Part shown: positions 7,201 through 58,647 of the stretch, piece by piece
How positions within the stretch are numbered: the first letter of the stretch is position 1
How the letters are laid out: each line of letters begins with the position of its first letter
Source: Sphaerolaimus hirsutus
Taxonomy: Eukaryota; Nematoda; Chromadorea; Monhysterida; Sphaerolaimidae
Direction of reading: 5' to 3'
Assembly (NCBI GenBank): GCA_964036195.1
Contig: OZ038452.1
Location: 8,488,704 to 8,552,703, forward strand
DNA: 64,000 bases
Notes under the pieces: model-generated
What the model was told of the DNA's origin: nothing
Databases searched by the model: none
The model's input: the letters and a program-made list of their open reading frames with translations, nothing else
Made by a program: the position numbers and the translations under genes

Positions 7201-9098
7201 AAGCTGCGCTGTTTGGGCCTAATCTGGCCGAGCGAATGCGCCATGGGAAACAATGGCACCCCAATGAAAGGCCCATGCCGCACCACTGCCCCGGAAATTT
7301 GCTAATGGGCAGGCGGCGGCGGCAAAGTGACATGTGCTGGCAGAAAATTTTTTAATTGGGGCCACATACGACAGTATGGAAACCTACCATAACCCATCTG
7401 AATAATGAACAAATTATACAGTTTTTTTCCATGATAATATTTTGTTTTTAATTTGGAATAATTAATTGTGAAATTTATGACAAGATTTTATTCATTTAAT
7501 TACGGTAGGATTCTGCACATACTTTGCGATTTTCGCCACGTTAATCCTGTCCCTATTTGATCTCTATTTTTGCCAATTGATCCCAGCTCAAAAGTTGACC
7601 ACAAACCCGCCCCCCACTTATGTAACATCAAACATGCGGATCCCCTTATGTCACAAAGAAATGCCATGTGCCCTGATTTTTGACTCAAAACAAAGAGATA
7701 ATCTCATGAGAAAACACTTTTTTGATCCTAAATATTGGACAACAGATGGAAATCTTTGTCCAATCTCAAGTGCCGCGTGCACCGCGGACCCCTATAAATA
7801 CCAATCCCGTTTTTTTGGAAATCATCGATCAGTTGGCATTCTGATTTCGGCAGAACCACATTTTGGTGTGCCAAGTAAGGAAATGAGTGGTCACAGCAGA
7901 GCCGCATTTTGGCGCGCTTTTTTGTTGCAAAATTTTTTTACGTGGTATTCAACCTCGGTATAACACGTTTTCTGCTTTTTACAAATAATTGGATGGGGTG
8001 TACGTTTTTCTGTAACGCGCATGTCTTCTAATAATGGGGTATACAAATACGTATAACCCGCCCTGTTGCGTGTTATTGATACATCAATTGTCTGCGCACG
8101 CGCTCATCTGCGCGTTAGACGGGTAAGATATCGATTTCTAGGTGACCTCTTTTTACGTAATAAACAAAAGGACGTGTTAGCACGGGGTACATATGGAATA
8201 ATTAGCGTGTTACGTGGTATACCAAAAAACCCTAAATCTCGCGGACAGCCTGTGCCGGGGTCACAAGCAGATGGTGCTGTGCTGATCACGTCTGATTTCG
8301 GGCAGGATTTGATGTGAGTTTACATCCTTTTTGACATGTTCCAATGAGGTGCTATACATTTACACATGATAAAAGTGATACATTTACACAGACATGGCAG
8401 AATGCTTATGGCGCCACCGTGCTTGCTGCCCGGTGCAGATGCCAACGAACCTGCAAATACCATTCCGAGTTATTTTGTGGGTGATCAAGCGTTCGCGTTG
8501 CGCAAGTGGTGTATGGTGCCATATGCGCTGCATGCAGATGACAGCCAGCGACACTTCAACTATCGGTGTGTTTGAATATTGTGAAAGAAGCGTTGTTTGG
8601 TAAAACTGAAATCTAAATTTGACTGCAACTACTGCAGCTTATCCCGAGCTAGGCGCACTGTCGAATGCGTCTTTGGTATTTTGGCTGGCAGATGGCGCAT
8701 ACTGATGACCTGTATCGCGATGGAACCGCCACGCGTACAAAGACTGGTTATGGCCTGTTGCCACCTGCACAATTGGCTGCGTGATATCCGTGGGGAAAGT
8801 GCTGCCAACCAATTTGATGAAAATGGCGATGAAAAACCACAAGATGACCCGAACGACACTGTTGAGCGAAATGTAAGTTTACCTTGCATATTCACTGTTA
8901 CAATTCAACATCACATAAATTCATTCCCATACACAGCTGCAGTGGCGACCAGTGTACGACAACATGGATACGATCGATAACGTGCCAATCCGAAGGGACG
9001 TTGACGAAAGAGATGCGCGCCCCATCAGGGATGCAATCAAGGAGTGGATGATGACGGACGCCGGTCGTGTTCCGTGGGTGAATCCCGCTGACTGCTGA
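4206..9098 (+). CDS. PIF/Harbinger transposase (DDE_Tnp_4), interrupted by a hAT insertion
   Basis: Exons are 4206-4544, 4727-4918, 4985-5183, 5752-5858 continued at 8261-8313, 8392-8565, 8638-8872 and 8937-9098. They encode 486 residues if the insertion is ignored. The PIF/Harbinger DDE fold is clear: first Asp in SLDGKHIRI, then YKGFSSIILF, second Asp in FVGDQAF, and Glu in RRTVECVFGILAGRWRI. The N-terminal 150 residues include an acidic Glu/Gln-rich stretch and a tryptophan-containing region that may bind DNA. Intron phases all agree, and the flanking codons meet exactly once the 5859-8252 element and one duplicated 8-mer are removed. No other stop or frameshift is seen, so the transposase was intact when interrupted. 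As it stands the gene should not make full-length protein unless the insertion is spliced out. Role: nuclear DNA cut-and-paste transposase. Confidence 0.9.
5859..8252. mobile_element. hAT-like non-autonomous element inside the Harbinger transposase
   Basis: The 2394-bp insertion begins CAGGCTGACCGTGA and ends with the complement of CAGGCTGTCCGCGA. It is flanked by the direct 8-bp repeat TGCCGGGG (5851-5858 and 8253-8260). An 8-bp duplication and CAG ends fit the hAT superfamily. Subterminal zones repeat motifs such as CGTGTTA and GTGGTATACC, typical of transposase binding. Inside are a TTCGAAAATTT foldback at about 6225-6395, related to the TAACGATGGC family, GC-rich non-coding stretches and one 128-codon open frame (7577-7963) that I do not recognise. 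No hAT dimerisation or DDE domain is visible, so it depends on a transposase made elsewhere. Confidence 0.85.
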
Positions 9099-20878: not shown

Positions 20879-23800
20879 TCACATACACAATGGGAAGCAA
20901 ACGCACGGGCATACGATGGAGCTGATCGGCCGCCAGATGACGGCGTTGAACGCGCTCCAGTAGTTGGAACTCATGGTGCAGTATATGGGCAGGCCGACGG
21001 CGCTGTGCGCCAGCGTGAGAAACTCCAGCATGTCGCCCAGCTGCATGTACATGCTCGTGTACACGGACTCCGTGTACACTGTGGCCAGCAGCGCGATGCA
21101 ACCGTGCGGCAGCTCGGCCAGGGGGTAACGATGGCAAAAAAATATTCGAAAATTCGAAAACATTTTCGAATTTTCGAATTTTTTCATAATTTTCGAATTT
21201 TTATTTCACCCCTGAAAAAAACACTTAAAAATCGATTTTTTTTTCTTCAAAAAATTCGAAAATTCATAAATTCGAAAATTCGAAAATAATTTTCGAATTT
21301 TTCAGGGAATTCAAGGCCAGAAAACGTGTTCATAAGTTAAAGGTGATAAATCAATCCGCAATTGATATTTAGTGTGTCTGAATAAGCGTGAAGTAATGGA
21401 GAAAAAAACGTCAAAAACGTTGAAATGGCATTTGTGGTGGACAACGACACATCCATTTCGGAATGCACCAAGAAACCGGATCTATTGCAAGTACGATGCT
21501 CTACTACCGTGACTATTGAACTATTGAACCCCTGCCCAGTGATGTAAAAGCGCCATGGCGCTGGAGCCTGGTTCTAGCGCCAAAGCAAAAAACGCCATGG
21601 CGCTTCTGGCGCTTGGTGCCATTTTGCTCTGGCACTAGGGGTCAGAAAAGCGCCGTGGCGCTTTTGGCGTTTTTCACATAACTACGGGCCCCGCCCACTA
21701 GTTTACCATTATGACATGTCAACTATTTTGGTAAACTGTTTTGACAAAACAGTATGAAACACTGAACAGAGTTTTACAGTGTTTCATACTGTTTTGTGAA
21801 AAATTTTTACCAAAGTCATGAAAAATTCTCTGGAAAATGGCAGACTGTGCTAAATTTAGCTAAACTAAGGTAAATTACAGTTAAAATAAGGTTAAAAGGT
21901 GATCCAAAACTTAAAACTATCCAAATACAGCATTCAAAGGTTCAAATTCGATAGTTTTCCAAAAAAAATTCGAAAATTAACCAAAAAGATTTGAAAATTT
22001 GAACATTCAAAAATTAAATTCGAAATTCAAAAATTATTTTGAAGAAAAATTCGAAAATTTAAAAATTCATTTCAGAAAAAGCACTTAAAAATTTAAATAC
22101 TTTTTTCTGTGGGGTTTGCCATCATTACCAGGGGGCACTCCCAGACCCAGTAAAAAGCTTTGTCAAATGTCAAATGTCATGCAAAGTGTCAAAAGTTATA
22201 GAAAATGCCCGGTAAAATGGCAAACGTACGTTGCACTTTGCATGACATTTTACATTTTACATGGCTTTACACAGAGTCTGGGAGTGGCACCAGAACGTAG
22301 AACACCGCCAGCGCCGTCAGCACCTGGGGCCAAATTCAATTAGTCTCACTCGCTCTTCCCTCAGCCCAGTCGATTGTGCATAAATACCTAACCAGTTACT
22401 GATATACCATATACAATCGAACAAGAATAACTTATCGACCATATATCCTTGAATAACTCCCCCCTGTTGGCCGAGTTAGAAAAATTAACTCGATCTGTGA
22501 CGTTATGAAATAACACTTTACGAAAGGCCTGGCAATAACTTGAAAAAATGGTGCAAAATACACAAGGGCAGCTTCCAATAGAAGGGCGTCTCCAATAGAG
22601 GGGCGGGTAAAAAGTTGGGGTACCTAAAAAATAGAAGGGGCCCTTCTATTAGAAGAACTACGGTACCTATTTATTTACAATGAATGTGGCCGCACACACT
22701 AGTTTACTAACACAAGTAAACTCAATTTGGGTGCCCATAAATCAGCTTTGAACGTATTTGAGTTTACCAGAATACGTTTTTTTAGATCCTCGTCAACTGT
22801 AGTTTACAGATACCTCATTTTGGTAAACTCAAATGCGTTCAAAGCTGATTTATGAACACCCAAAATGAGTTTACTTCTGTTAGTAAACTAGTGTGTGCAG
22901 CGCCATTAAGGCTGCTCAGAAAAATGATTCGATCTAATTGAATTTCGCTCCTGTTCACGAAACGCGTTGGCCCGCTGACGCATGTGCGATGGAGATCGAT
23001 CATTTTTGACTATTGCGGAATTCACGATGTCGACTGCGAATGGGGTGAGAGCTTGAAGAGTGATAAAACGTAGAAGTGAGTATTTCTTCGATTTTGTACC
23101 CAGGACAAACAGAAAATTTGGTAAGTGAAAGTGAGTGTCGTCGCTTACCCAACCGCTGCAAGTTTTATCATCTCCGCTGCCATTTTTGCAGCCATTTCAA
23201 CTAGTTTTGAGCTTTTTTGATTTTTATACATCCCATCAATTTTTCGTTTCACGTTTTCTGTTCTAGCGTACTTTCAAAAAGTAAACCTTAGTAACGTTGA
23301 GTACAGGCATTCTTCCGGAGGAAACGTAAACGTACTCGAGTATATGTATTTATTTTTCAGGTAAAGGTAAATACGTTTTAACAATATCCTGTGTGGAAGG
23401 ACCAGACCTTATCTTGGTTGTCCCTTATATATGAGTAATTTTTCAAAATTGCTTGTATGTTGATCCACTCTAATCTTAAATTAAATTAAATTAACAACTA
23501 GGCTAAAAACACAACTCAATACCGGACCTGAACACCCGAACCCGATACACACGAAATCTTTTGGAACCTATACCCGATACCCAACCCAAAATTCTTTGAA
23601 CTTGATAACCTCTACCTGAACCATAGACGAAAAATGTTCCAAATTTCTGGCAGTGACAGTGAGTGACAGGTATTCTAGAGGCGGTGACAATAAATAGTCT
23701 TTTTAAGTCATAGAATGAGAAAAAGTGAGAAAAATCGCTAAAAATAGGTGAAAATGACTAAAATAGGTATATAAGCACATATATAGCCAACAATAGTCTA

Positions 23801-26800: not shown

Positions 26801-29800
26801 ACAATCGGTTATTTCGACGCGTATTTATGCTTCTTAGAAGCATGGTACTGTTGCATTCATCATTGTCCTTCTGCAAGACATTGTCAATGATTATAATTTA
26901 GGTTTCCATCAATATTAGTTAGAACATTTACATACCGTATTACCTCGAATTAACCCCCCCCTTGAATTAACCCCCCCCTCGAAATACCCCCCTAAATTTC
27001 GGCTGAGGAAATAATAAACCCCCCCCTCGAAATACCCCCCCTAAGATTGAGTGTAACGTGAACGTACATGACAAATACCGCAGTTTGAGATCTGTACAAT
27101 GCAGAACACACGTTAAAACTGATGATTAAGTGACGTTAGGGAAGGGTTTTTGTGTATATACAGTTATATATGCGTATAAACACATATACATCAATGTAAT
27201 TGTTCGATTTTTCTACGTCCGCGTACGGGGAATTTCCGAAAATTTCTGGCGAAATAATAGACCCCCCCCTCGAATAAACCCCCCCCTCGAATTATCCCCC
27301 CCTCAAATTTTGCTGGCGAAATAATAAACCCCCTGGGGGTATTTCGAGGTAATACGGTATGTACGTAGTTTCAGGGCTTCTGCCGAAGAGAATGACACAT
27401 GAAATAATCTACACGCGGGTGATTTCGAAAAATTGATGCTATAAAGATCTTAACAATAATTGCGGCAAACGCAGAGGGAAGAAAAGTGCAAACGCATAGT
27501 GCAAACGTGCAAACGCAAAACAGCAGAACACAAAGGGGAAAAATTGTCGTAATGTGCCTACGCACACTAGTTTTCATACGGAATTTCGAAAACTCACAAA
27601 TCAGCTTTGAACGCATTTGAGTTTTCTACGATGAGGTGGCCGTCAACTACAGTTGACGCAGACAAAAAATGACTAATTGTGGAAAACTCAAACACGTTTA
27701 AAGATCATTTATGAGTTTTCGAAATTTCGTGTGAAAACTAGTGTGCGCAGGGCCAATAAGACGACTTGTACAGTTTTCGTAGTCTGAAATGTTTCGTAAG
27801 TGGCCTTTATGTTCAGGAAATATTTCATCCCCACAGCGTATCCAACAGTATCGTATCGCGAGGGTGTAAAAAAATCGGAAAGGGAAACAGGAAAAAATTT
27901 ACACTTGTCGGAAAATGAAAATGTAAACAGATTTTTTTTGCACTTTCAGGAAAACGAAAAACGAACAACATGAAGTGCCACAAAACGGAAAGCGGAAAAC
28001 GGAAAGCGAAATTTGCATGGAAATGAAAAAAATTGCTGAACTTTTGCTGGAAATTTTTTACATGACGTAAAATGATGTTCTAGAATTAATTTAAATTAGT
28101 GTGGATGATGCTACAGGTCTCCAATTTTTCTTGATAATATATGTATCAATACTTTAATTGTGACCAATACAAAGTGTTATCATTTACAGCTATTTAGATA
28201 AAATTGAAAATTCCAATTTTTTTCATTTTACGTCATAATTTTACCTCAGGGAACTAATTTAACATTTTATGTCAACGATTTCATGCAACCATTGACATAA
28301 AATGTAAAATTAGTTCCCTGACGTAAAATTGTGACGTAGAATGGAAAAAATTGAATTTTTCAAATTGATCTAGCTGTGACTGATAACCCTCAGTATTGGT
28401 CACAATTAAGGTATTGATACATATACCGTATTTCCTCGAAATACCCCCCCCCTCGTTTGACCCCCCCCCCTCTCGGGACCACTATGAAACAATCACCCCC
28501 CCCCCTCGAAATACCCCCCCAAATTGAGTGTAAAGGGAACGTACATGACAATAACTGTAGTTTGTGTTCTGTATACTGCAGAACACACGTTAAAACAATG
28601 TCGGTGTCACGTTAGAACAGTGTACATACCATCTACATACTAATATTAGTCTACAGAACCTTATAAATGGCAGTTTTTGTTGCATTTTTCGACGTCTGCG
28701 TACGTTTCAGACGACAATTTCGTACTTGGTTTTCAAAAAATTTCTTGTGAAATAATAACCCCCCCCCTCGAAATACCCCCCCCCCCTCGTTTAACCCCCC
28801 CCCCCCCTCTCGGGACCACTATGAAACAATCACCCCCCGGGGGGTATTTCGAGGAAATACGGTATTATCAAGAAAAAATTGGAGACCTGTAGCATCATCC
28901 ACACTCATTTAAATGAATTTTACCATGAGCTGTAATCTCAGCTTGAAACCGAAAATTGTAGTGGAAAACGAAAAATGAGCCAGAAAAATACGGAAATGAA
29001 AAAGAAAAAAAATGGAAACGGAACAAATTTTGCTTTCGGGAACGGAAAGTTGACACCTATCGCTGATACCTATCGCTGCGTAAAGGCGTCAATTCGCTCC
29101 ATATGGAATAGCAAAAAAAATTCAACAAAGAATTCTAATGGCAAAACTTAACCGGTATCAGTTTGGCCCTGTTTTTCCGGCTATTTCTCATCGTCTTTAT
29201 CACAGCTGCACTGAAAGCCACTTGCAGACAACAGGGCAGCAGCCGCAGAAACACTCCCACTATGAAATTGGCAGTCTTCACGAACGAGCATTCATTGTAC
29301 CGAGCGACTTCCGAGAACTCAAATCCATATAGGATAGTGTCTGAAAGAAAGTTTATTGAAAAAGCAAAAAACACGGAGAAATGTGGATGGATGACGAGTA
29401 AGGATGGTCGGAGTTTTTAAGTATTTAAAATTGCTAAAATGTGTTGACACTGTTTTTTAAGTGGTAGCAGAGATTTTTAGCACAGAGTTACACCTTTTTT
29501 GCAATTTTTTGCATGTGTGCGATGTCGACTTTTAGCCAAAACTAAGTGGACTTGTCGACTTCTTTTCGTCCAATTTTTGGCCTCAATTTTTCCCCAAAAA
29601 TGTCAAATTTATCACTATCATTATAGGGGTGTGTGTAGGGCTTGAAACTCGATTTTTTTCAAACTCGAGTTTGAGTCTCAACCCAAAAAAAACTTCCGGT
29701 CGAGTTGGCGAGTCGAGTCGGGCGAGTCAGTGAAAAGTCGAGTCGAGTCAGGCAAAAATCTCGAGTCTCAGGTCGAGTTGGTTGCGTTTAGGGTGTCAAA

Positions 29801-32800
29801 TTTCCTTTTCCTGTTTTCCGTTTCCGTTTAACGCAGGCAATTTTTTTCCCTTTTCCATTCCGTTTTCCGGCTGCTGAAATTTTTTTCTCCGTTTTCCATT
29901 CTGTGTTCCGGCCAAATTTTTAGTTTTTCCATCTTTTTGCCATTTTCCGGCTCAATTTCCAGTTTTTCCAGCTTTTTTCCCATTTTCCACCTCAATTTTC
30001 CATTTTTCCACCTCATTTTACCTTTTTCTGGCTCAACTTTCTGTTTTCTGTTACAGCCAAACTGGTAAACATTCATGCAGATTGTCAATTATGTGAATTT
30101 TTTCTGTTTCCAGCAAAATTTATGCAATTTTTTTCCACTTGCGGCAAAATTTCAGCAATTTTTTTCTATTTTCCAGCAAAATTTCAGCACATTTTTTCAT
30201 TTCCATGCAAATTACCTTTTTCCGTTTCCGTTTTTCCAGGCCATTTTTCCGTTTTCCGGCTGCTAAAAATTTTTTTTCCATTTCTGTTTCCATTTTCCGC
30301 TAAGTGCAATTTTTTTCTGTTTTTTGTTCCATTTTCCGGCTGCTGAAAATTTTTTTACGTGTCCGTTTCCGCTTTCCGTAAACAAATTTACTTTTGGTAT
30401 GACCCTTGCAGAAATTTTAGATGCTGGTTTCTCTACCAATGTTTTCACACACACTCAATCAAGTTTAAATGCCAACAGTTTATTTTTATATCAAAAGAAA
30501 GCAAAAAATATGACTTACATGTTCACTTTCTTGATGTTGCCAGAAATAAAGTTGCAAAAAAAACCCAGCTTAGCGATGGAAATACAGCATATTTTAATGA
30601 TCTGGTTTTTTAAATAAAAAGCAGTGTTTTTTAGAAAAACCATTGAAGAATGTCATCAGTAAACCACCAGGCAAATTACATGTAACGCCAATGTCAGGCA
30701 ATGATTGAAAAGCAACTTCCCTTGTCAGAAACAAGTATTTTTTATATTCTTTAAAACGGGGCACTCATCACACAAAGATAATCAGCTTGGGACGTATCGG
30801 GTATTTTTGAATGGGAGTGTTTGGTGAATGGTCATGGTGAATGAATGGTGGGGGCTCGCTTACCACACACAAATGGATTCATGCCATTACACTGGCCCTA
30901 TCATAGGCACCACAACATGGCACCATTGGCAATAAGAAACTTGTGTTTTAACATCATTCAATACATATGCCAAGCCAATTATTGAAATATTGTGTGTGGG
31001 AATATGCACTTGCGCGCAAAATTTTTAAAAAATGTGTCAAAAAATGATATCAAAATTGATATTTTTGAACATAATTCAATGGGTACCACATTATTCAATT
31101 TGCCAAAATTTTGAGTTGAGTCAGGCAAAAACATCGAGTCTCGAGTCAGGGCCATATTTTTACGGTCGAGTAAAGTCAGTACCCAATTTTACCCTCGAGT
31201 CACGAGTCGTGTTGTGTCGAGTCGAGTTGAGTTCGAGCCCTAGGTATGTGGGGTCAAAAAAAGTTATTGAAAATAATGAAAAATGTGCCTGAGTAGCAGC
31301 GCTAGATGACTTTTCCAGGCCTAACCGGAAATTTTCGTATATTGGACTTGTCGACTTATAGAATTGGACGCCTCAATTGTTAAATCAAGCGCACTATTAG
31401 CGTCCTCCGGACTGAGGCAGTGTAGCATCTCATTGGTCACGCCGCCGCCGACCACCGTCTGCAGGACGAGCGCGGGCAAGCTGAACATGGCCGTGGCGAA
31501 CAGCGTGGTGAACACGAGCAGCGCGGCGATAGAGTGCACCTGGGGGCAGTCCCAGACCCTGTAAAATGCCCTGCAAAATGTCAGACCATGTAAAATGTCA
31601 TGTATCATGTAAAAGACCCTGTAAAAAATAAAATGTCTTATAAAAGACGCTGTAAAGTGTCATGTGTAGGGTGTCAAATTTTTGTTTACCGTTTTCCGTT
31701 TCCGTTTTCCGCAGGCAAATTTTTTCCGTTTTCCGTTCCGTTTTCCGGCTGCTGAAATTTTTTTTCCGTTTTCCGGCAACTTTTTTTTCCGTTTCCGTTT
31801 TTCCGCCTCATTTTCCGTTTTCCGGCTCAATTTTCAGTTTTTCCGCCTTTTTTCCGTTTTCCGCCTCAATTTCCAGTTTTTCCGCCTTTTTTCCATTTTC
31901 CGTCTCACTATTCCATTTTTCCACCTCATTTTACCTTTTTCTGGCTCAACTTTCTGTTTTCTGATCAGCCAAACTGGTAATAATTCATGCAGATTGTCAA
32001 TGATGTAAAAAAATTTCTGTGTCTAGCAAAATTACTGCAAAATTTGTCCACTTCCAGCAAAATTTCAGCAAATTTTATCCGTTTTCCGGCAAAATTTCAG
32101 CAAGTTTTTTCCATTTCCATGCAAATTTGATTTTTCCGTTTCCGTTTTTCCGGCCTCTTTTTCCGTTTTCCGGCCGCTGAAATTTTTTTTCCGTTTCCGT
32201 TTCCGTTTTCCGCCAAGTGCAATTTTTTTTCCGTTTTCCGTTCCGTTTTCCGGCCGCTGAAAATTTTTTTCCGTTTCCGTTTTCCGTAAAAAATTTGTTT
32301 TGACACCCTAGTCATGTGTATCCAAATCTTATTGTATCTAAGATGTATGTAAAATATGGATTCACATGACAGTACAGGGTTTTTTACATGACACCTGACA
32401 TTTTACAGGGTCTTTTACATTACACCTGACATTTTACAGGGTCTTTAACATGACACCTGACATTTTACAGGGTCTTTTACATGACACCTGACATTTTACA
32501 GGGTCGTTTACATGACACATGAACATGGCATTTTACACTGTACTTTACACTTTGCATGGTGTTTTACAGGGTCTGGGACTGACACCTGGGGGCGGCCGTA
32601 GCGACGCGTGGCCACCGCGCACGAGCCCGCCCGCACGCACTTGTCCAGCCAGCGAGCGCACCTGCCCTTGGAGGTTTTGTTGCCGCTCGGCTGCTGGCCC
32701 GACCACAGCACCAGGCACCTGCGCAGATTACCAGTATTTTCTCACCAGTAAAAACTTTTCAAAATTCAAAATTTGGAAATTTGAGACGTGTGAGATTGAG

Positions 32801-35371
32801 AGTGAAACGTCATTTGAGAGTGAAACGTCATTTGAGAGTGAAACGTCAAGAATGTAAAAATGAATACTGAGAAATTTAAAACTATTATGAACAATTCAGC
32901 AATCGGAAAACTGAAATATGGAACGGAGAATGTTTGAAATTGGAAAATTCATTTTAGAAAAGACATCAGAAAACACATTTAGAAAAGTGAATAGGTGCGC
33001 TCTAAAGACTGTGCTGTAAATACTGCAAACGAGTGCCAGCGGCGCCAAAAACTGCACCTGATAATGGTAACGATAGCGATCATCCAAATGACGGCCGCGT
33101 GGATCCACAGCGACATCCACGATTGCAGCCACAGAAAGTGCACCCAGAACCAGGAGCGCAGCGACAGGGTTTCCTCGCAGCTAACCGATTGGGAAACCCT
33201 GCGCTCATAGCGCGAATCTTTGGCGGATTTAGGGCGGCCGGTCCGCAACGATTAGCATTGATAAAAATCACCAATTTGTTGAGGATATAATTAAACATAA
33301 TCTCAGAAAATCTCTCAAGAAAAAAATATAATCAAATCTCTGTCAAAAAATCTGGAAAAAATATAAATATCAGAATTTGAGAGATTTTCTGATATCTTTA
33401 AAAATCTCAGGAAATATCTCAAAAAGAAAATATACCTAATCAAATCTCTCTGGAAAATCGTGGAAAAAATATAAATCTCAGACAATCTTATATTTTTATG
33501 AGATTTGTTGAGAGTTTTTATATATAAATCTCGCAGAGATTTTCGCACGATGCATGCTTTTTCACCAAGCATTTCTCGAGATATAAAAGCGTGCGTATTG
33601 GTGGACCCCCACACTAAAGTTCTACCCGAGATTTTCGCTATGCCTGTACTTCCACGTGGATATCACTTGCAACATCATTGCGCCTGTGTGATGGATGACC
33701 AGTAACGATGGCAAAAAAAAGATTCGAAAATTCGAAAACATTTTCGAATTTTCGAATTTTTTCGGAATTTTCGAATTTTTATTTCACCCCTAGAAAAAAC
33801 ACTTAAAAATCGATTTATTTTTCAAAAAATTCGAAAATTCAAAAATTCGAAAATTCGAAAATACTTTTCGAATTTTTTAGGGAATTCAAGGCAAAAAAAC
33901 GCACTCATAGGTTCAACGTGCAAAATAAAACGACAAATGATACGCGGTGCGTATGAAAAAGCGAAACAAAACAAAAAAACGTCCAAAAACATTGAAATGT
34001 ATAATGTGAAATGTCTTGCAAGTGTCAAAAGTTATGAAAATGCCCTTGAAAATGGCTAACATGTTTGAAATTTTCCACAGCATTTCCATGACTTTAGACA
34101 ATGTGCATAACACTTGACATTTCACAGAGCATTTTACAGGTGTCTGGGACTGCCCAAAGGAACTGCACATATTTATAAGTAAAAGGGATGTGATCAAAGA
34201 GATACTCCAGCCACATAACACCTTACATTGAAATCTACCATATCCCATCTGAATAAAAGAACTAAAATTAAAAAAAAATCATCATATTTATCAAAGCAAT
34301 TTGATAAATATAATTAAAAAAATGTAATGTTTGTCCTTTTATTCAGATGGGGTATGGTAGATTTCATTGTAAGGTGTAATGTTGCTGGAGTATAAGAGTG
34401 GTTTCGAGTATTGGTTTGAGAAGTACCCGTATCTTGTGAAGTCAGCACTGTATGCACTGAGTACGCTCAGTGTGTCACCCACTTCCAAAACAGTCCCAAT
34501 TCTGCGTTTAAAGCTTCAGATTCAATATTTTTCCAAAAAAATTCGAAAATTATTTGAAAAAATTCGAAAAATAGCCCAAAAAATTCGAAAATTGCCAAAA
34601 AAGATTCGAAAATTCAAAAATTCGAAAATTAAATTCGAAATTCGAAAATTCATGTCAGGAAAAATTCGAAAATTCAAAAATTCATTTTGGAAAAAACACT
34701 TAAAAATTTAAATACTTTTTTTTGGAGGGTTTGCCATCGTTAATGACCAGTGACTGTACACATTTTACTGTCTGTAGTGAAATCTACCATATCCCGCGTG
34801 AATAAAGAACCAAAAAATAAACTTTTGTTATTTTATTACATTGCTTTCATTTAACTATCAGTGAATTTTCTGCTTAATCTTTATATCACTTTTTGGACAA
34901 ACATAGTAAGATTCACTGTAAAGTATGGTTTCAAATGAGCATACACATTGTGCACTTTAATGTTTACGTAAGTCACTATGGCAATATTTAAAGGCACCTG
35001 AAACTTTACGAGTTTAAATCACCCGATATAATATTTACAAAAATACGGCAATGGAATAGAACAACAATGGAATATATTGGTGCCATGGCGCTGGCACCTT
35101 ACGTGAATTGCCGCCAGCTGAATATCTCCAGGCTTCAACTTCTCTGGCACTTTTCCATCGCTACAGTAGATTCACAAAGTGCTCAAAACGCACACAGGTC
35201 AGCCATGGCGACGCCCGACAGCAACACGTTGATGGGCAAGTGGCGCATCTTCCTGGACGTGAGCACGCGCATGTGCACGCTGTTGGCGACTAGACCCACC
35301 GCGCAGAGCAACAGAGAAATGTAGCGGTGGTACGAGCCGTACATTCGGTTGACCATACCCAAGTGCTGGAT
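20879..35371 (-). CDS. Peptide GPCR, DMSR-like (rhodopsin family), 5' exon(s) missing
   Basis: Seven exons join with matching phases: 35371-35196, 33180-33058, 32718-32586, 31539-31395, 29340-29153, 22323-22291 (33 bp) and 21112-20879, giving 343 residues without the start. Order: TM1 (ISLLLCAVGLVANSVHM), start of TM2 (INVLLSGVAMADL), TM3 (SWMSLWIHAAVIWMIAIVTI then Arg), a Cys-rich second intracellular loop, TM4, an extracellular loop with Cys and NNT, TM5 (LLPCCLQVAFSAAVI), TM6 (LTALAVFYVL then LPHGCIALLATV) and TM7 (LTLAHSAVGLPIYCTMSSNY). The LGD...YCTMS pattern is typical of DMSR/Srw peptide receptors. The tail may end in a Cys-rich CPCVCFPLCM at the stop 20881-20879 or be spliced on at GTATGC (20914). 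The end of TM2 seems short, so an exon may be missed in the 2-kb first intron. Two introns are made of one transposon family. Located in the plasma membrane; ligand unknown. Confidence 0.8.
21126..22127. mobile_element. hAT element (TAACGATGGC family) in a GPCR intron
   Basis: This 1002-bp element has ends TAACGATGGCAAA and TTTGCCATCATTA and perfect 8-bp flanks CCAGGGGG (21118-21125, 22128-22135). The subterminal arms are long TTCGAAAATTCGAAAA palindromes with AAACACTTAAAAATCGATTT. It sits inside the introner-like copy at 22136-22290, so it is the younger insertion. Confidence 0.85.
22136..22290 (-). mobile_element. Introner-like element, GPCR intron between exons 6 and 7
   Basis: Read on the transcribed strand the intron opens GTGCCACTCCCAGAC exactly at the exon 6 donor. 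The other end reads GTCTGGGAGTGCCCC next to the exon 7 side. The ends match the 31540-32585 and 45774-45969 copies. The host triplet CTG appears on both sides. With its nested hAT, this element accounts for all but a few bases of the 1178-bp intron. Confidence 0.7.
22686..22905. repeat. Harbinger MITE (~220 bp)
   Basis: Inverted ends GCACACACTAGTTTACTAAC and GTTAGTAAACTAGTGTGTGC carry inner inverted blocks CAAATGCGTTCAAAGCTGAT. They match the Harbinger right end at 9956. Confidence 0.85.
22906..24672. other. Gene-free intron sequence with decayed repeats
   Basis: No coding exon is supported. It includes a decayed CAGAGTTGTTAAAA-type fragment (about 23265-23390), AAAATAGGTATATAAGCACA-type repeat words near 23760, and a fragment of the same hAT-like family at 24560-24672 that resumes after the 24673-26666 insertion. 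Confidence 0.4.
24673..26666. mobile_element. 2-kb foldback element with near-identical arms and 8-bp TSD
   Basis: Outer arms of about 370 bp (24673-25050 and 26285-26666) are near-perfect inverted copies, beginning AACACCTTCCCGGTCACG. Inside the left half lies a second hairpin (25050-25440, CTTTACATAACTT against AAGTTATGTAAAG). The direct repeat TATAAATA flanks both ends (24665-24672, 26667-26674). A 76-codon open frame occurs identically in both arms, but only because they are copies. No transposase is present. It was inserted into an older hAT-like repeat. Confidence 0.85.
26935..27357. repeat. TA-flanked C-run MITE
   Basis: TA flanks are at 26933-26934 and 27358-27359. Ends and core match 17161-17587 closely. 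Confidence 0.85.
27553..27756. repeat. Harbinger MITE with TAA duplication
   Basis: The 204-bp element is flanked by TAA on both sides, as expected for the TWA targets of Harbinger. Ends are CGCACACTAGTTTTCAT and ATGAAAACTAGTGTGCGC-like; the inner block is CAAATCAGCTTTGAACGCAT. Confidence 0.85.
27866..29058. mobile_element. hAT MITE (TAGGGTGTCAA family), triple nest
   Basis: Outer ends are AGGGTGTAAAAAAATCGG and GGAAAGTTGACACCT with GGAAAACGGAAA repeats. Inside is a palindromic element (about 28085-28920, GGTCTCCAATTTTTCTTGAT against its complement), and inside that the TA-MITE 28426-28862. The flanks TATCGCGA and TATCGCTG are only 6 of 8 identical. Confidence 0.65.
28426..28862. repeat. TA-flanked C-run MITE inserted in a palindrome
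   Basis: 437 bp flanked by TA, with ends CCGTATTTCCTCGAAATACC and GGTATTTCGAGGAAATACGG. The intact opposite arm of the host palindrome shows the pre-insertion sequence with a single TA. The core is almost identical to 43511-43961. Confidence 0.9.
29790..30409. repeat. CCGTTTTCCG-rich hAT-like MITE
   Basis: It starts TAGGGTGTCAAATTTCC and continues with many TTTTCCGTTTTCCGGCTGCT-like units. The right end is decayed (GGTATGACCCT). Open frames here are low-complexity Phe/Ser/Pro products of the repeat, not genes. Confidence 0.6.
30410..31394. other. Gene-free GPCR intron sequence
   Basis: I see no exon here. The 29630-29785 and 31110-31240 segments carry inverted TCGAGTCGAGTC and GACTCGAG repeats, so a decayed element probably spans the 29790-30409 insertion. 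Confidence 0.4.
31540..32585 (-). mobile_element. Introner-like element forming GPCR intron 3-4 exactly
   Basis: The intron runs GT-AG from 32585 to 31540 on the minus strand. Its first bases GTGTCAGTCCCAGACCCTG and last bases GGGACTGCCCCCAG are the inverted ends of the element. The host CAG precedes the donor and recurs as the acceptor. Internal ~31-bp tandem units (TGACATTTTACAGGGTC) repeat about five times at 32385-32520. Without the nested hAT (31667-32310) it is about 400 bp. Removing it joins RYGRPQ to VHSIAALLVF in frame. Confidence 0.75.
31667..32310. mobile_element. hAT element (TAGGGTGTCAA family) nested in the introner
   Basis: 644 bp, ends TAGGGTGTCAAATTT and GTTTTGACACCCTA, flanked by perfect GTCATGTG repeats (31659-31666, 32311-32318). 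The interior is repeated CCGTTTTCCGTTTCCG. Confidence 0.9.
33302..33545. repeat. AAATCTCTGAGAAAAT-type AT-rich repeat
   Basis: Many short words (AGAAAATCTCTCAAG, AATATAATCAAATCTC) recur in both orientations. The same family occurs at 35745-35880 and 36930-37065. Confidence 0.65.
33703..34742. mobile_element. hAT element (TAACGATGGC family) in the first GPCR intron
   Basis: 1040 bp, ends TAACGATGGCAAAAAAAA and TTTGCCATCGTTA, perfect flanks ATGACCAG (33695-33702, 34743-34750). Paralogue of 21126-22127. It carries a broken introner-family end near 34140-34157 (GTGTCTGGGACTGCCC) and an inner palindrome of CTACCATATCCCATCTGAAT type at 34225-34380. Confidence 0.9.
34751..35195. other. Intron sequence, possibly holding a missed TM2 exon
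   Basis: No exon is firmly supported. An AG (ATATTCAG) and a donor GTAAGG lie 15 bp apart on the minus strand near 35100-35120, but that is too short to judge. The segment also carries AATCTACCATATCCC repeat words. Confidence 0.25.
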
Positions 35372-36070
35372 CTGTAAGGCGAGGAATGGACTGCGGCCTC
35401 TGGCCCTGATTGATTTGAGGTATACACGGTGGACCGCACGCCTCGACTGCATTTTTCTGAAGGAAACACTCCATCATGACGTCATCGTTAATAAAATAAA
35501 ATTTGTTCCAGAAAAAAACGTTCCGGGAAGATACATTCGTCGCTTGTACTCCGCCTTTTTCTTTTATTTTATTTTTCATTTTCTGAAGCTAATGTTTGTT
35601 TGTGATGAATTGTTGGGCTAATATTTTTGAGCACACTCAAAAAGTGCAGAATAAACAACTCAAAATCTGCCAAAATTAGCCGATTGGTTTGGTATAGTCC
35701 TCAATTATGACTAGCATTGAAAAAATGGCCAATTTTGAGAAAATATAATTAAATATTATCTCAGAAAATCTCTCAAGAAAAAAATATAATTAAATCTCTT
35801 GGGTCATTTTAGAAAATATAATTAAATCTCTGAGAAAATCTCTTTCAGTTACAAAAAAATCTCAGAAAATCTCTCAACTTGAATTGTGTTTTAATTGGTA
35901 TTTCAAGTATAAGCTTATTTTTTAAACTTTAGTTGCAAAAGCTTTAGTTTTGTTTAAGTTTTTCATCAACAATTTGATCAACACATTATCTACTGACAGC
36001 ACGCTTTGTACTACTGTTAAGGGCATTGTCAGCGTCGCAGCTTGTCAGCCCAAAAAGTTATCTAGACCCC
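35372..36070. other. Upstream of visible GPCR exons, repeats only
   Basis: The 35440-35580 segment is an arm of the GACGTCATC foldback family. The 35745-35880 segment is AAATCTCTGAGAAAATC repeat. The first GPCR exon(s) with start codon were not found here. Confidence 0.4.
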
Positions 36071-36074
36071 AGCC

Positions 36075-36146
36075 GCCACAGTAGTCCGGCGGTTAGGGCG
36101 CTCGTGTTCTTTACGAGAGGCACAGGTTCAATTCCGGCCTATGGCA
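36075..36146 (+). tRNA. tRNA-Arg(UCU)-like sequence, probably a pseudogene
   Basis: A 72-nt cloverleaf can be drawn: acceptor GCCACAG/CTATGGC (one C-A mismatch), D-stem GTCC/GGGC with an 8-nt loop, perfect anticodon stem CTCGT/ACGAG with loop GTTCTTT (anticodon TCT), 4-nt variable loop, T-loop TTCAATT. The T-stem ACAGG/CCGGC has two mismatches and position 37 is T, not a purine, so function is doubtful. It has no intron. Confidence 0.45.
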
Positions 36147-40863: not shown

Positions 40864-43800
40864 TCACATCAGCCATTTTGTGTCATGTATAACCTTGGTG
40901 CTGTTCGCGCTAGAATTTCCATCTCCACCCCCCGAGCCCTTTGTTCCATGCGATTTTTGCCACGCCTCTTTGTATTTCTGTTTTCCAATTTCATCACCGC
41001 TGAAATTTATGAAATTGAAATTGAAAACACTGATAATTAACTAAATATGTGGAGGTGGCATCAAACAATAAAGGTTGCACAGTGCATAATACCAAACATG
41101 ATCAGTATTCTGATTTAGGAATCCAACAAATATCAGCCCGCTAAATGTGCCCACATACTGACTGGCATCCTCACATTAAATTTTAATTAACATTAAATTA
41201 ACAAACTATTCAATGGTTTGGACATCAGTATTGCTCAATGGAAAGCCGCCATCGCTTTCCATTACATAAAGGTCAGTAAAACGTGAAGATTCTAAATTCA
41301 AACCATTTTGCAGTGAGATTTTCAAAACGCATGATTTTGTCAAAATAAAATCAAAGAAAATGCAACAAAAAAACAACGAAAATATGATAACCTATTTCCT
41401 CGAAATACCCCCAGGGGGTTTATTGTTTCATAGTGAGAATTTTGAGGGGGTAAAACGAGGGGGTATTATTTCGCCAGGATTTTTTTTAAATCCCAGTACT
41501 AAATTGTTGTTTGTAACGTACACAGATGTTGAAAAATGCAACAAAAACCGCCATTTATAAGACTCTATAGATTCTATCTAAGTACGTAGACGTATAAAAC
41601 CTGTTCTAACATCATAACACGGGCATTGTTTTTATCCTGTGTTCTGCCTTTCCCGGATCACATTTATGTTTTTGTCATTTATGTTCTCTATATAGTATAT
41701 TGGGTGGGGGGGTATTTCGAGGGATGGTGTATAAATTCATAGTGTCCATTTTGAGGGGGGGTATTTCGAGGGGAATATTTCGAGGAAATACGGTAGGCAA
41801 ATCCTACTGAAAAAATGGAAAAGTATCAATGCGATATTTTTTATTATTTCCTCGTAAAAAACTTTGCCAAAAACCTGGACAAATTACACCTTTTTTTTTC
41901 TTATATTTATTTTCTTACATTTAAAATAAATATATACCGTATGTCCGTACACAGGTATGTCTTACTATGAATTTCATAAACATTTCTGACGAAATAATAA
42001 CCCCTCCCTCGAATAAGCCAACCCCCTCGAATAAGCCCCCCCTCTAAATACCCCCCTAAAAATTTCCACTCTGAAAAATAAACCCCCTGGGGGTATTTCG
42101 ACGAAATACGATAAATTTCCCGAAATCTTTGGACTGCCAGTTACAGTAACACACCTCGTCTTACTCTCTACAGCTTTGCTGAATCTAGTGTCTTCCTCCC
42201 GATGTTGATAGGAGTCATAAGTGAGTATTTCATGCGGGCTGGTCGAATCGGTGGGCTTGCACGTCACTTTGAACGCGGCATCGTGCGCGGTCATGATGCG
42301 ACGATCGTGTTGCAACACTATCACATTCGTGTAGCTCATGTCATCCTGTAGGGGGTGGAGGGGGGTTACTGTTCAGATTGGTGGGGCGTGTCGGATTTTT
42401 GCTTTGTTGACAAAAAGATGACAAGTGATGTAAAAGTGCCATGGCGCCAATTTTGCGTGGCGTCAGGAAAGAAACGTCTGGCGCTGGCGCCTTTTTACAC
42501 CACTAAATACAACTTTGAAGGAGTGCTTTTATGAATAGCAGAAGGATGATGTCCCGCTTGAAAACCACGCCCATTTAGAGCCAATGCACTGGCTCTGTTT
42601 CTACCATTTTGTAGTAAATATGTTCGTTTAAAAAAAAATATTTTACCTACTATGGAATCATGAATTCGTTGAGTGAACTGCACCATTCTGCGGATAAAAA
42701 TATTGCATTGTGCGTGATACTGGAGGTATTTATAGGTAATTGTACTGGAACAACATATTTATAATTCGTTTACCATCGAATAATTTTTTGAAACTTGCAA
42801 ATACACATGATGGGCTTTTACAAACAAACTGATCCGTATGAACAGGGGGCTGTTGAATGGCACTTTACAATACCAACAATTTTTAGGTAAACTCGGCAGA
42901 CATGAAACGAATCAGGTATTCGGCCCTTGGTTACCAATGACGTATCTTTTTTAATTCGAACTTGAATGGACGGATTCCATCCGGTTCACGATACTTTTGA
43001 TTCAATCCAACTTTTTATGCGAGAACGAGATGAGTTTGATAGACAAATCGTTATAGAAAGTCAGATTGTAAGGTCTTAGGTCGGATCTTATCGTCGCAGT
43101 CTCGACGAATTCCTTCAAAAAAGAACGTATGAACTTCCCAGTGCGTCCAAGTTACCTTTGCATTGAATACGAATGAGGTAAAAGACGCTAGATTTCCGCT
43201 CTCGTCAACGAAAATGACCGCGGTATCCAATTAAATCAACATGTGTGTCAACTCGTGTGTGCGCCGCCATTAGCGACCAATTGCGTTCGCTTAATCGCAT
43301 TCCGCAGCCATTTTTGGTGACGCAGACGGAAATCCTGCATCTTTCATACTGGGTAACATTCTCTCAAACGGTAACTTGGACGAGTGCCAACTACGAATAT
43401 ACGCAGTTGTACGAAAATCCCGTAGAGCATTGACTTCCATAATGTCCGTCGAGTTTTAAACCTATGTGCATGGCTATTCTATACATACGAATAAACAATA
43501 ACATGATATACCGTATTTCCTCGAAATACCCCCCCTCGAAATACCCCCCTCGTTTAATCCCCCCCCTCTCGGGACCACCATGAAACAATCACCCCCCCCC
43601 CTCGAAATACCCCCCCCCCAAATTGAGTGTAAAGGGAACGTACATGACAATAACTGTAGTTTGTGTTCTGTGTACTGCAGAACACACGTTAAAACAATGT
43701 CGGTGTCACGTTAGAACAGTGTACATACCATCTACATACTAATATTAGTCTACAGAACCTTATAAATGGCAGTTTTTGTTGCATTTTTCGACGTCTGCGT

Positions 43801-45035
43801 ACGTTTCAGACGACAATTTCGTACTTGGTTTTCAAAAATTTTCTTGTGAAATAATAACCCCCCCCCCCCTCGAAATACACCCCCTCGTTTAACCCCCCCC
43901 CCCCCCTCTCGGGACCACTATGAAACAATCACCCCCCGGGGGGTATTTCGAGGAAATACGGTAATGTGAAGCTGGAACGGACCTCCCTTATGGTGTTGCA
44001 CTGATCATAGCCAAATGTGAACACGACTCTCTGTTGGTTATCCACGAAAGTGCGGCAGTCCGGAGCTTTGTCGTAGCCGCCATCCGTGTAAACGACGCCC
44101 GAAAATGGCCCCTTTCTGTGTGTCACTATGAGCTTGAACGAATCGGGTGCGCAGATTATTTGCACATTGAATGGGCTCGCATCTGCGAAGGGGACGCCCG
44201 TAAATATAACGTTCTTATCTGATGGAAGATATACTTTTGTCAACTTTTTACCTGCCGTTCTGTTGGAATTGGCGTTTTATTTTTTCACACATCAAAGGTA
44301 GCATAGGAGGGAATCCGTTATATTAGAAGAAACACAGTATTTTTGGCACCATATTTACGTGTGTATTTTTTGGCACCAGTCGTTTTAAAAATTATTTGAA
44401 GATAGCTGTTTGAACATTTGAATGCAAAGTCATCGGACAAAACGGAAAGTGGCGCCAATTCGCTCTTATTCTGTTAACTATATTAATGGAATTACCGTAT
44501 ATCCTCGAAAAAGTCCCCCCTCTCGATTAAGTCCCCCCTTTTGTGAGTGTGAGGAAAAAACAACTCCCCCCTCGAATAACTCCCCCCCCCGCCCACTTTG
44601 ATGGGTAGAAACATTTCATAACATTTCACATTTACAAAAAACGTTTTGAATAAATATAGGTATGTAATATCTTGCAGCTAGAATTCACTAACATTGTTTT
44701 CACTGCTTGAATTTTGAATTTTGTATTTCTACAAATCATTTATGTTACCAAATTCACCCCATTTATGCAGTAAATTTATCATACATTTTACTGGAAATAC
44801 TTACGAAAAAATAACTCCCCCTCGAATAACTCCCCCCATCGAATAAAACCCCCCTCAAAAACTTCTGACGAAAAAATAACTCCCCGGGGGACTTTTTAGA
44901 GGATATACGGTACTTGTAGATCGATGCAAAAAATATCCACCAACCAGATTTCCAATGGTCCAAAGCTGCGTATGCCACATTGAACAAGTTACCAGACAAA
45001 AATAAGCAAATTAACGAAAACACACTACACGCCAT
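40864..45035 (-). CDS. Small secreted ZP-N (cuticlin-like) protein
   Basis: Five exons with agreeing phases: 45035-44945, 44218-43983, 42345-42165, 41291-41207 and 40999-40864, encoding 242 residues. The start is chosen because MACSVFSLICLFLSGNLFNV makes a good signal peptide with AYA before the mature part; an in-frame ATG lies further upstream. Residues ~30-130 match the ZP-N half of a zona pellucida domain, with four spaced Cys (QIIC, PDC, DQC, VTC), PFSGVVYTDGGYD and NVIVLQHDRRIMTAHDAAF. The usual ZP-C half is absent: the last two exons are hydrophilic, without Cys, and end in a Gly/Ser/Asn-rich tail. So it is either a ZP-N-only extracellular protein or the last exons are misassigned. Nematode cuticlins build cuticle or apical matrix. 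Three of the four introns carry TA-MITEs. Confidence 0.75.
41391..41793. repeat. TA-MITE in the third ZP-N gene intron
   Basis: Ends CCTATTTCCTCGAAATACCC (one arm slightly decayed) and CGAGGAAATACGG, with GAGGGGGTATTATTTCG-type subterminal words. Confidence 0.7.
41938..42111. repeat. Truncated TA-MITE beside the exon 3 donor
   Basis: One arm is intact (CCCCCTAAAAATTTCC to GGGGGTATTTCGACGAAATA) and the other is decayed to TACCGTATGTCCGTAC. It starts about 52 bp inside the intron. Confidence 0.6.
42346..43510. other. Second ZP-N gene intron, little structure
   Basis: It contains a GCGCCA-type hAT MITE at 42425-42506 (AGTGATGTAAAAGTGCC to TTTTTACACCACT). The rest is unremarkable. The open frame at 43245-43433 shows no domain. 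Confidence 0.4.
43511..43961. repeat. TA-MITE 20 bp from the exon 2 donor
   Basis: 451 bp, flanked by TA. The core matches 28426-28862 nearly base for base, with the length difference in the C-runs. It ends 20 bp inside the intron. Confidence 0.9.
44495..44910. repeat. TA-MITE 33 bp from the exon 1 donor
   Basis: 416 bp, TA flanks at 44493-44494 and 44911-44912. Ends CCGTATATCCTCGAAAAAGT and ACTTTTTAGAGGATATACGG, a subfamily with AACTCCCCC words. Confidence 0.85.
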
Positions 45036-45773
45036 GTTCTCAAGAATTTTAATGTACATCTGTGCAAGAATGATCATCGATAATATCATATAAAATAAAT
45101 AGATGGGTCACAACAAAAGGAACGACAGATGAAAGTGAAAACAATATCGCCTAATTCTCCACGGCCGCTCTGTGAAGTGCAAAAATCGATTTGCGAGCGA
45201 AATAATGAAAGTGTACATAGACATTAGCGTTTTTAATGTCCACACCGAGGTTTCGGAATCACGCATGAATTTCGCAGTGAAATTTGAAATTGTCGCGAGA
45301 TTTTCCAGCGCTAGTTTCAATGAGCGCGCATGTGAACGACCAGCGTCCAGTCTAAAAAACGATACGCAGTGTGCGTCGTGTATTGGAGAAAGAAACGCGT
45401 GAATTCATGTGCACAAACTTCATGATGAAAGTACATAAAGGAGATAAAAAAGAATAAAGAGACAGTTTTTATGGCATGGTGTATGTTTGGCAATCGGTTT
45501 ACATATGGAGCTTCCACTTCTCAAAGTCGATAACCCATGATATTGCATAGGTAAATAAGTTTCATTTTCGATTATCTGCCAGCGATGCATATCCAATGGC
45601 CGCGCTCGCTGATTATCGTAACGTTCCAAATTTCGGTTCTAAAGTGTCCACTTTTTCACTTCTGTTGTGTTCTTACAACGCGCAGCTGTCCCACTACTTT
45701 TGGATAACACCTTACCTGCACGTTCAGCTGTCATCTGGTGTAACGCGTGATTCATTCTAGTACCCATCTGGTG
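45036..45773. other. 5' flank of the ZP-N gene
   Basis: Presumed promoter/5' UTR side. No exon is supported; open frames of 60-76 codons on both strands show no domain or codon bias. Confidence 0.35.
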
Positions 45774-45969
45774 CCAATCCCAAGCCCTGTAAAGTGTAAA
45801 GTAAAGTGTCAAATGTAAAGTCAAATGCAAAGTAAAGTGTCAAGTGTCATGCAAAGTTCAGTAATAAAAATTCTTTTTTTTTGTTTTGATTGACACTTGA
45901 CTTTGCATTTGACTTTACATTTGACACTTTACTTTACACTTTACAGGGCTTGGGACTGCCCCCAGGTGG
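45774..45969 (+). mobile_element. Introner-family copy outside a recognised gene
   Basis: About 196 bp starting GTGCCAATCCCAAGCCCTG and ending GGGACTGCCCCCAG, near-palindromic (AAAGTGTAAAGTAAAGTG against its complement, ~60-bp arms). It has GT...AG at its termini on the plus strand. The flanks are CATCTG and GTGGC. No open reading frame continues across, so it may be intergenic or in an untranslated region. Confidence 0.7.
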
Positions 45970-58342: not shown

Positions 58343-58647
58343 GGTGCCGCGACCGTGCCCGACTCGGCCCGACTTCGCCCGACTACCCGACTTGCCCGAC
58401 TACCGGACTTGCCCGACTACCGGCGCCCGACATCGTCGACTCGACGCCGACATCGGGATCCAGCAAAACTGACGTCGTCAACGATTGCCCAACTACCAAC
58501 GGCATCAACTACGTCGAGCGACCATCGACGTCTGCCGACTACTCACCGCTATCGACTATCTACGGCAGTTCAACTTGACAGAAACGTCCATCGCAGCAGG
58601 CTACAGCCGTGCTGACAACGAATTCTACCGATCAACAATGACACAAT

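Follow-up and report, generated by a model that had tools for sequence, protein, structure and literature searches.

A candidate family of transposon-made introns in an animal genome, with 3' ends that may be set by the insertion target

The minus strand of the 64-kb stretch of DNA analysed here (the window; C3:8488704-8552703, in an assembly of 348 Mb and 762 contigs) carries a gene for an Srw/DMSR-type GPCR, which we modelled as seven exons (35452 to 20879) with 378 codons plus a stop and no internal stop (Table 1). Frame and splice consensus guided the choice of its start and of the boundaries between exons 1 and 2 and between exons 4 and 5. The product of the whole seven-exon model matches Pfam 7TM_GPCR_Srw at 1.8e-24 (87.1 bits); a single database relative was found at E 0.001 or better, and its family has many members named 'dmsr-1-like'. 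A small exon may be unrecognised, because the TM2-TM3 region is partly absent relative to the family profile. The exons have a G+C content of 48-73%, against about 39% in their surroundings, and every boundary of the model except that at the element we call copy B ends in AG.

Other features share the window with this gene. A 736-aa open frame on the plus strand (58642-60852), which matches Ty3-type gag and, weakly, aspartic protease, represents the gag of an LTR retrotransposon, and a tRNA-Arg(TCT) is predicted at 36075-36146 (+). By eye, we also noted two minus-strand exons resembling a ZP-domain (cuticlin-like) protein (44221-43983 and 42345-42160), as well as repeats bounded by inverted CCGTATTTCCTCGAAATACCCCC termini and containing long G-runs at about 28430-28860 and 43500-43970.

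Table 1. The GPCR gene, the candidate introner copies and the elements nested in them. Positions are those of the window, except for the CNOT9 copy, which is placed on contig C1.
Feature	Position	Strand	Remarks
GPCR exon 1	35196..35452	-	ATG at 35452-35450
GPCR exon 2	33058..33198	-	
GPCR exon 3	32586..32718	-	
Left TSD copy CAG of A	32586..32588	-	exonic
GPCR intron 3	31540..32585	-	candidate introner copy A (32585-31543) + right TSD copy CAG (31542-31540)
hAT-like element nested in A (644 bp)	31667..32310	-	TIR TAGGGTGTCAAA; 8-bp TSD CACATGAC at 32318-32311 and 31666-31659
GPCR exon 4	31395..31539	-	3' end picked by frame
GPCR exon 5	29153..29340	-	
GPCR exon 6	22291..22323	-	
Candidate introner copy B (159 bp), exon 6/7 junction, TM6	22132..22290	-	TSD CTG at 22293-22291 and 22131-22129
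hAT-like element over B's right edge (1,002 bp)	21126..22127	-	TIR TAAYGATGGCAAA; 8-bp TSD CCCCCTGG at 22135-22128 and 21125-21118
GPCR exon 7	20879..21118	-	TGA at end
Candidate introner copy C, 192-bp near-palindrome	45771..45962	+	flanks CTG / CAG; no long open frame around
CNOT9 candidate introner + TSD	C1:10595878-10596052		

Intron 3 of the GPCR gene is 1,046 nt long. Read on the minus strand, exon 3 ends ...GGCCGCCCCCAG, the intron starts GTGTCAGTCCCAGACCCTG and ends GGGTCTGGGACTGCCCCCAG, and exon 4 starts GTGCACTCTATC; at greater length, the intron starts GTGTCAGTCCCAGACCCTGTAAAA after an upstream exon that ends CAG, and finishes with TTTTACAGGGTCTGGGACTGCCCC followed by CAG. The termini of copy A are inverted repeats, identical at 17 of 19 positions, and its two ends were found with 0 and 2 mismatches, where 100 shuffles gave an expectation of 0.00 at up to 3 mismatches. 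CAG stands before the left tip and again after the right tip, a 3-bp direct repeat that brackets the element, and exons 3 and 4 join in a single frame (GRPQ|VHSI). An earlier note on this DNA had given the position and letters of the intron, read its ends as the inverted termini of one element, placed the donor in the left terminus, derived the acceptor AG from a duplicated host CAG, and stated that removal leaves a continuous frame (GRPQ then VHSIAALL). Coordinates and letters are right on direct reading of the minus strand, the terminal repeats and the 3-bp duplication are as it described, and the joined gene gives the Srw match. The further claim that the intron is exactly one element holds at the ends, which are exact, but not inside, where a 644-bp hAT-like element is nested. 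A relative of this nested element, 81% identical, lies at 30389-29786; without the insert and the target-site duplications (TSDs), the core of copy A measures 391 bp. A TSD of 10-11 bp for copy A, from CCCCCAGGTG on both sides, was considered and dropped: the TSD is 3 bp, because CCCC is the right tip of the element itself, common to copies A, B and C.

A second copy (B) in the same gene splits TM6 between FYVL and AELPHG, within a segment that aligns without gaps to a 110-protein family profile. Exact removal of B gives 87.1 bits against Pfam, loss of AE 79.3 and addition of VPL 84.1. Copy B now ends ...CGTTACCCCCTG|GCCGAG, with the next exonic AG at +6 and in frame; both A and B start with GT, and the intron-end AG is present for A and absent for B. 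Because of the hAT-like element over the right edge of B, the closest AG upstream now stands at -93, and splicing of B may be poor as a result. Neither insertion is brand new, because A and B have each since received an element with an 8-bp TSD; we take these elements to be hAT-like from this TSD length and their tips. A third hAT-like element of 1,040 bp occupies GPCR intron 1 (33703-34742, minus strand; TIR TAACGATGGCAAA, 8-bp TSD CTGGTCAT), and its ends are 85-87% identical to those of the element over copy B.

The earlier note had proposed a search of the whole assembly for the element's ends. The 348 Mb contain 1,561 exact matches to the 19-base left end (790 + 771) and none to a reversed control pattern. 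Exact TIR patterns gave 0, 0 and 2 stretches in viral contigs and 0 in prokaryote contigs; one of the viral stretches (L001) resembles viral coding sequence. As a sample we took the first 100 left-end places along contig C1, all of them GTGCC and so a single exact left-end variant. Dropping duplicates by left flank left 96 left ends, of which 85 are followed within 700 bp by a right end; the other 11 are excluded from the family counts. The 85 copies have a median length of 183 bp, and their right tip, read inward, is GGGG in 58, while the left tip (GTGC/GTG) is fixed by the search pattern, so that the sampled donors are GT by selection. Flanking triplets are identical in 56 of the 85 copies (CAG 29, CTG 24, CGG 2, CAT 1; 53 are CAG or CTG) and non-identical in 29. 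Genome-wide, 603 of the 1,561 left ends follow CTG, and the count of right CTG is 557. The consensus of 69 copies is palindromic and 189 bp long, and all 74 elements of up to 450 bp close their ends as a predicted hairpin, the strength of which does not separate AG from TG copies. Element plus TSD is a multiple of 3 nt in 39 of the 85 copies and leaves a remainder of 2 in 28 and of 1 in 18, a skew that may merely reflect common family lengths.

Several sampled copies have close neighbours. L018 and L019 (C1, ~3.59 Mb) both match Oscp1, one with CTG and one with CAG; L066 and L067 (C1, ~9.55 Mb) lie ~5.6 kb apart and both match P-type ATPases, perhaps within one gene. L047 and L048 belong to receptor-like paralogues ~17 kb apart and have the element in the same flanking sequence, so it predates the duplication or rode along with it.

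An insertion was called coding when both flanks are coding in one frame after removal of the element and one TSD copy. With a codon model built from the window genes only, 23 of the 85 copies are called coding, 19 in sense and 4 in antisense orientation (p = 0.003), a polarity to be read beside that of control CWG sites in the flanks, which are likewise sense-rich (271 sense, 94 antisense), as the closeness of sense exons would lead one to expect. The coding-call rate is 0.27, compared with 0.081 (n = 4,533, flanks) and 0.075 (n = 1,699, window) at control CWG sites, which themselves include real exons. The best frames of left and right flank agree in 32 of the 85 copies, against a mean of 17.7 and a maximum of 29 in 1,000 shuffled pairings; a self-trained codon model gives 24 sense and 3 antisense calls, and under it the agreement, again 32, is matched by the best of 1,000 shuffles. 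The 3 or 4 antisense calls are unexplained and weigh against the introner reading. Since 62 of the 85 copies have no coding call, many may lie in non-coding DNA.

We then turn to the proteins that are restored when the elements are removed. Thirty joined sense peptides, hand-picked for long open frames, were searched against Pfam in three sets of ten, which gave matches at E 0.01 or better for 8, 3 and 4 peptides. The Pfam alignment spans the junction in 11 (L018, L019, L047, L052, L053, L066, L076, L079, L081, L083, L089), and a PDB comparison spans it in L067, for a total of 12 of the 30 hand-picked peptides; L034 and L073 have a Pfam match on one side only, and L077 a weak match below the family cut-off. 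None of ten antisense joined peptides, mostly of high coding score, has a Pfam match. Gap-free alignments cover 95 residues of the CNOT9 joined peptide against solved CNOT9 (GVIGAL|VKTDEQEV) and, against PDB entries, 84 residues of a Na/K-ATPase (L067) and 95 of an ATRX-like helicase (L083; AANR|VIIFDASWNP); for BCKDHA (L052) the PDB alignment spans the junction with a single gap, far from it. The CNOT9 segment occurs at one place in the assembly, in the two exons that flank the element, and 266 residues across three exons are 49, 77 and 80% identical to a reference sequence. The other intron of this gene is GT-AG (GTGAGT...CAG). Retention of the element would shift the frame, as element plus TSD is 175 nt. 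The earlier note's proposal that this family makes introns de novo is supported by the 1,561 left ends, the identical TSDs in 56 of 85 copies, the 19:4 sense excess and the exact restoration of conserved domains in genes unrelated to one another.

The 3' boundary is where these copies divide. Among the twelve genes whose alignments span the junction, five have CAG as the right triplet (L019, L053, L066, L067, L089), six CTG (L018, L047, L052, L076, L079, L081) and one CGG (L083), so exact excision would leave GT-TG or GT-GG ends in seven. A count of exonic copies with exact GT-AG boundaries, also suggested earlier, therefore comes out mixed, with five of the twelve genes having such boundaries and the seven others ending in CTG or CGG. 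About half of all copies are without CAG at the 3' boundary and have CTG or another triplet instead, so splicing by the canonical GT-AG rule cannot account for everything. Of 26 CTG copies, 25 have an AG at -19, partly by construction because this position is inside the right-end search pattern (up to 3 substitutions), and all 26 have one within 45 nt. Competing acceptors are conceivable, as AGs frequently occur at -19 and -31; either of them would shift the frame if joined to the terminal GT donor. The donor consensus is GTRAGT, which the element's GTGYCA matches poorly.

Mismatched TSDs carry a direction. Among pairs with a single-base difference in which CAG is one member, the CAG is on the right, the side inside the intron, in 14 cases and on the left in 1 (two-sided p = 0.001); counting all mismatched pairs with one CAG, the figures are 14 and 5 (p = 0.06). 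This bias suggests selection for AG, as it is what such selection would give, and it favours the spliceosome over a mechanism to which the dinucleotide makes no difference. An age test of CTG/CAG against CTG/CTG copies over the right 45 nt was not significant (p = 0.13, n = 6 and 23). Five CTG/CAG copies are 73-87% identical to the consensus (one over only 60 nt), with class medians of 88-90%, which does no more than suggest a greater age.

We conclude, with a probability of about 0.87, that intron 3 is of introner type, formed by a non-autonomous DNA transposon (MITE) that inserts into CWG, duplicates it and is excised as an intron. The anatomy, the copy number, the TSDs, the sense excess, the exact restoration of proteins, the predicted hairpins and the direction of TSD changes are shown by analysis of the assembly. 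In the mechanism that we propose, a MITE with a 189-bp near-palindromic consensus would transpose into a CWG triplet and duplicate it; with tips of GTGYCAG on the left and, read inward, GGGGCAG on the right, a sense insertion into an exon would read exon-CWG|GTGYCAG...CTGCCCC-CWG|exon. The left tip, beside the retained left TSD, would provide the 5' splice site and the right TSD the 3' splice site, and removal of the element with one TSD copy would restore the reading frame exactly in any codon phase. With A at W, the new intron would be GT-AG from the start; with T (or with CGG), it would end in TG (or GG). An RNA hairpin may join the two ends, an internal TTTTACAG ~19 nt upstream may serve early AG recognition, and the second splicing step may use the terminal TG, a two-step choice with which the AG at -19 and the closed hairpin ends, holding the splice sites together, would fit. 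In ageing copies, mutations that turn the right triplet into CAG would be favoured.

The copies would have to be transcribed and spliced, and they would probably have been moved by a NuwaI-type transposase; a mobilising PHIS transposase would be expected to have ends like GGGGCAGTCCCAGACCCTG. No autonomous element for the introner was found in the 64-kb window. By eye, an intron-rich PIF/Harbinger (HARBI1-like) transposase gene lies at 4207-8877 on the plus strand (SLDGKHIRI and GGTRYWCYKGF motifs); it was considered as the autonomous partner and rejected, with no matching TIR around the gene. On balance, and by a modest degree, we favour the wider reading that several hundred transposon-made introns are routinely spliced in an animal, with a 3' end set by the target site and about half ending in TG (a few in GG), among them one in the only CNOT9 gene found; hairpin and upstream AG would allow the wrong dinucleotide, and AG ends would evolve base by base.

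Other readings of the same loci differ in how well they bear these observations. MITEs are common in introns, and no coding signal surrounds copy C or many of the sampled copies, as would suit ordinary MITEs that entered pre-existing introns; yet both tips match both exon ends to the base in A, B and the 12 verified genes, and the TSD spans exon and intron with no remnant of an older intron, which leaves this origin scarcely credible. A more serious contender, possible though in our estimate rather unlikely, is that only the CAG copies are true introns, while exonic CTG and CGG copies give up a few residues by splicing to a downstream exonic AG, or are spliced inefficiently, or represent young insertions that are harmful or heterozygous. 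The right-side CAG excess does imply that AG is better, and canonical in-frame alternatives with the terminal donor exist for some copies, in a search of limited span with the added letters unchecked for stops: at +15 and +18 in CNOT9, at +18 in OSCP1 (L018), at -9 in L081 and, in the GPCR, at the GAG at +6, which keeps the frame and costs AE. Such alternatives would delete 5 or 6 residues or more from CNOT9, 12 from the ATRX-like protein (L083) and 6 or more from OSCP1, where the other option is a gain of 15; the one in L081 adds three residues, the sole one in L052 within the span searched adds 19, and L047 and L079 have none in that span. Alternatives that use internal donors add or change residues, and the GPCR profile score falls without AE from 87.1 to 79.3 bits. 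Nor do recent or harmful insertions sit easily with a copy B old enough to host a nested hAT-like element, with a CNOT9 segment that has no second place in the assembly, or with the 603 of 1,561 left ends that follow CTG.

Alternatively, excision might be independent of splice sites, with an RNA hairpin (or a DNA mark, as for ciliate IESs) removed by a non-spliceosomal activity to which the AG is irrelevant. 'SOS splicing' of transposons offers a parallel; the phrase was absent among the matches listed in a full-text literature search. Self-closure of 74 of 74 elements, AG and TG classes alike, would suit such a mechanism, as would the near parity of CTG plus CGG copies with CAG copies in verified exons and the Amoebophrya introners, which, in the available text of PMC7789003, combine inverted repeats and short direct repeats with non-canonical ends and are modelled as hairpins. 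But removal through a hairpin or at the DNA level is blind to orientation, whereas coding copies stand at 19 sense to 4 antisense, antisense peptides at 0 of 10 in Pfam, and the left tip has a GT; single-base TSD changes, moreover, put CAG on the right side in 14 cases and on the left in one. We therefore regard this explanation as improbable and retain the introner, excised by the spliceosome, as our reading.

These copies bear on an old question, that of how introns originate and whether their splice sites must be right at birth. One family gives many aligned replicates in a genome that is animal by its gene content, with the CAG/CTG target as a natural coin toss, which makes it possible to measure directly what a non-AG end costs and how mutation repairs it. 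A CWG-targeting transposon group would be linked to intron birth, its target CAG being itself a splice-site consensus, and a change of GGG to GTG at one tip suffices for a donor. If our reading is true, new introns are born outside the AG rule and brought under it later.

Intron formation by introners, and the occurrence of hairpin introners with non-canonical ends, are already in print, as far as the available portions of both sources go (PMC9860276; PMC7789003), and the earlier note's statement that introners are known to create introns in some eukaryotes finds its source in the first of these. In the excerpted text of Gozashti et al. (2022; PMC9860276), DNA-transposon introners have GY/AG core sites. 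They resemble the copies described here in their TIRs and short TSDs in coding sequence, in taking one splice site from the element and the other from the TSD, in their enrichment in genes, and in their aquatic hosts, from copepods to protists. Unlike those introners as there described, about half of the verified insertions here keep CTG or CGG at the 3' boundary, and CAG seems also to arise by later mutation of the right TSD. Amoebophrya, a dinoflagellate parasite with >60% non-canonical introns of varied ends, many of them RNA-seq confirmed, has introner elements with inverted repeats, direct repeats at the boundaries (3-5 nt there) and a predicted hairpin, according to the part of PMC7789003 available; the present case differs from it in a genome whose genes mark it as animal, in the GT-AG ends of the other introns of the two genes read, in a fixed GT donor and in a single variable base, set by the target.

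Non-AG splicing in an animal would not be without precedent, because tunicates have non-canonical introns (PMC13326754) and the copepod Eurytemora GA/GG donors (PMC5714493), many of their introns thus lying outside GT-AG in the passages available. Here the deviation is at the 3' end and follows a transposon's target triplet, which those passages do not describe. The closest transposons appear to be the NuwaI group of PHIS (PIF/Harbinger-related), with 5'-CWG-3' TSDs, TIRs of 12-61 bp, usually a GGG start, and animal hosts; 53 of 56 identical TSD pairs here are likewise CAG or CTG, a 3-bp CWG duplication, and the creation of introns is not described in the available sections of that source (PMC4482050). 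The left tip of our element differs in being GTGY rather than GGGG, which gives the donor, and the element is a MITE without a transposase. A full-text search by titles and abstract starts, with most subscription papers and preprints outside its scope, found no description of a NuwaI-type introner family. In humans, TG serves near an AG as a 3' end for the U2 spliceosome in 36 genes, always as an alternative to that AG and never as the sole site, and this use has been read as early recognition of AG with a late choice of TG, as far as the accessible text of PMC2374985 reports. Sole TG ends would accordingly be exceptional; here, in a repeat family, TG would be the sole boundary restoring the protein exactly.
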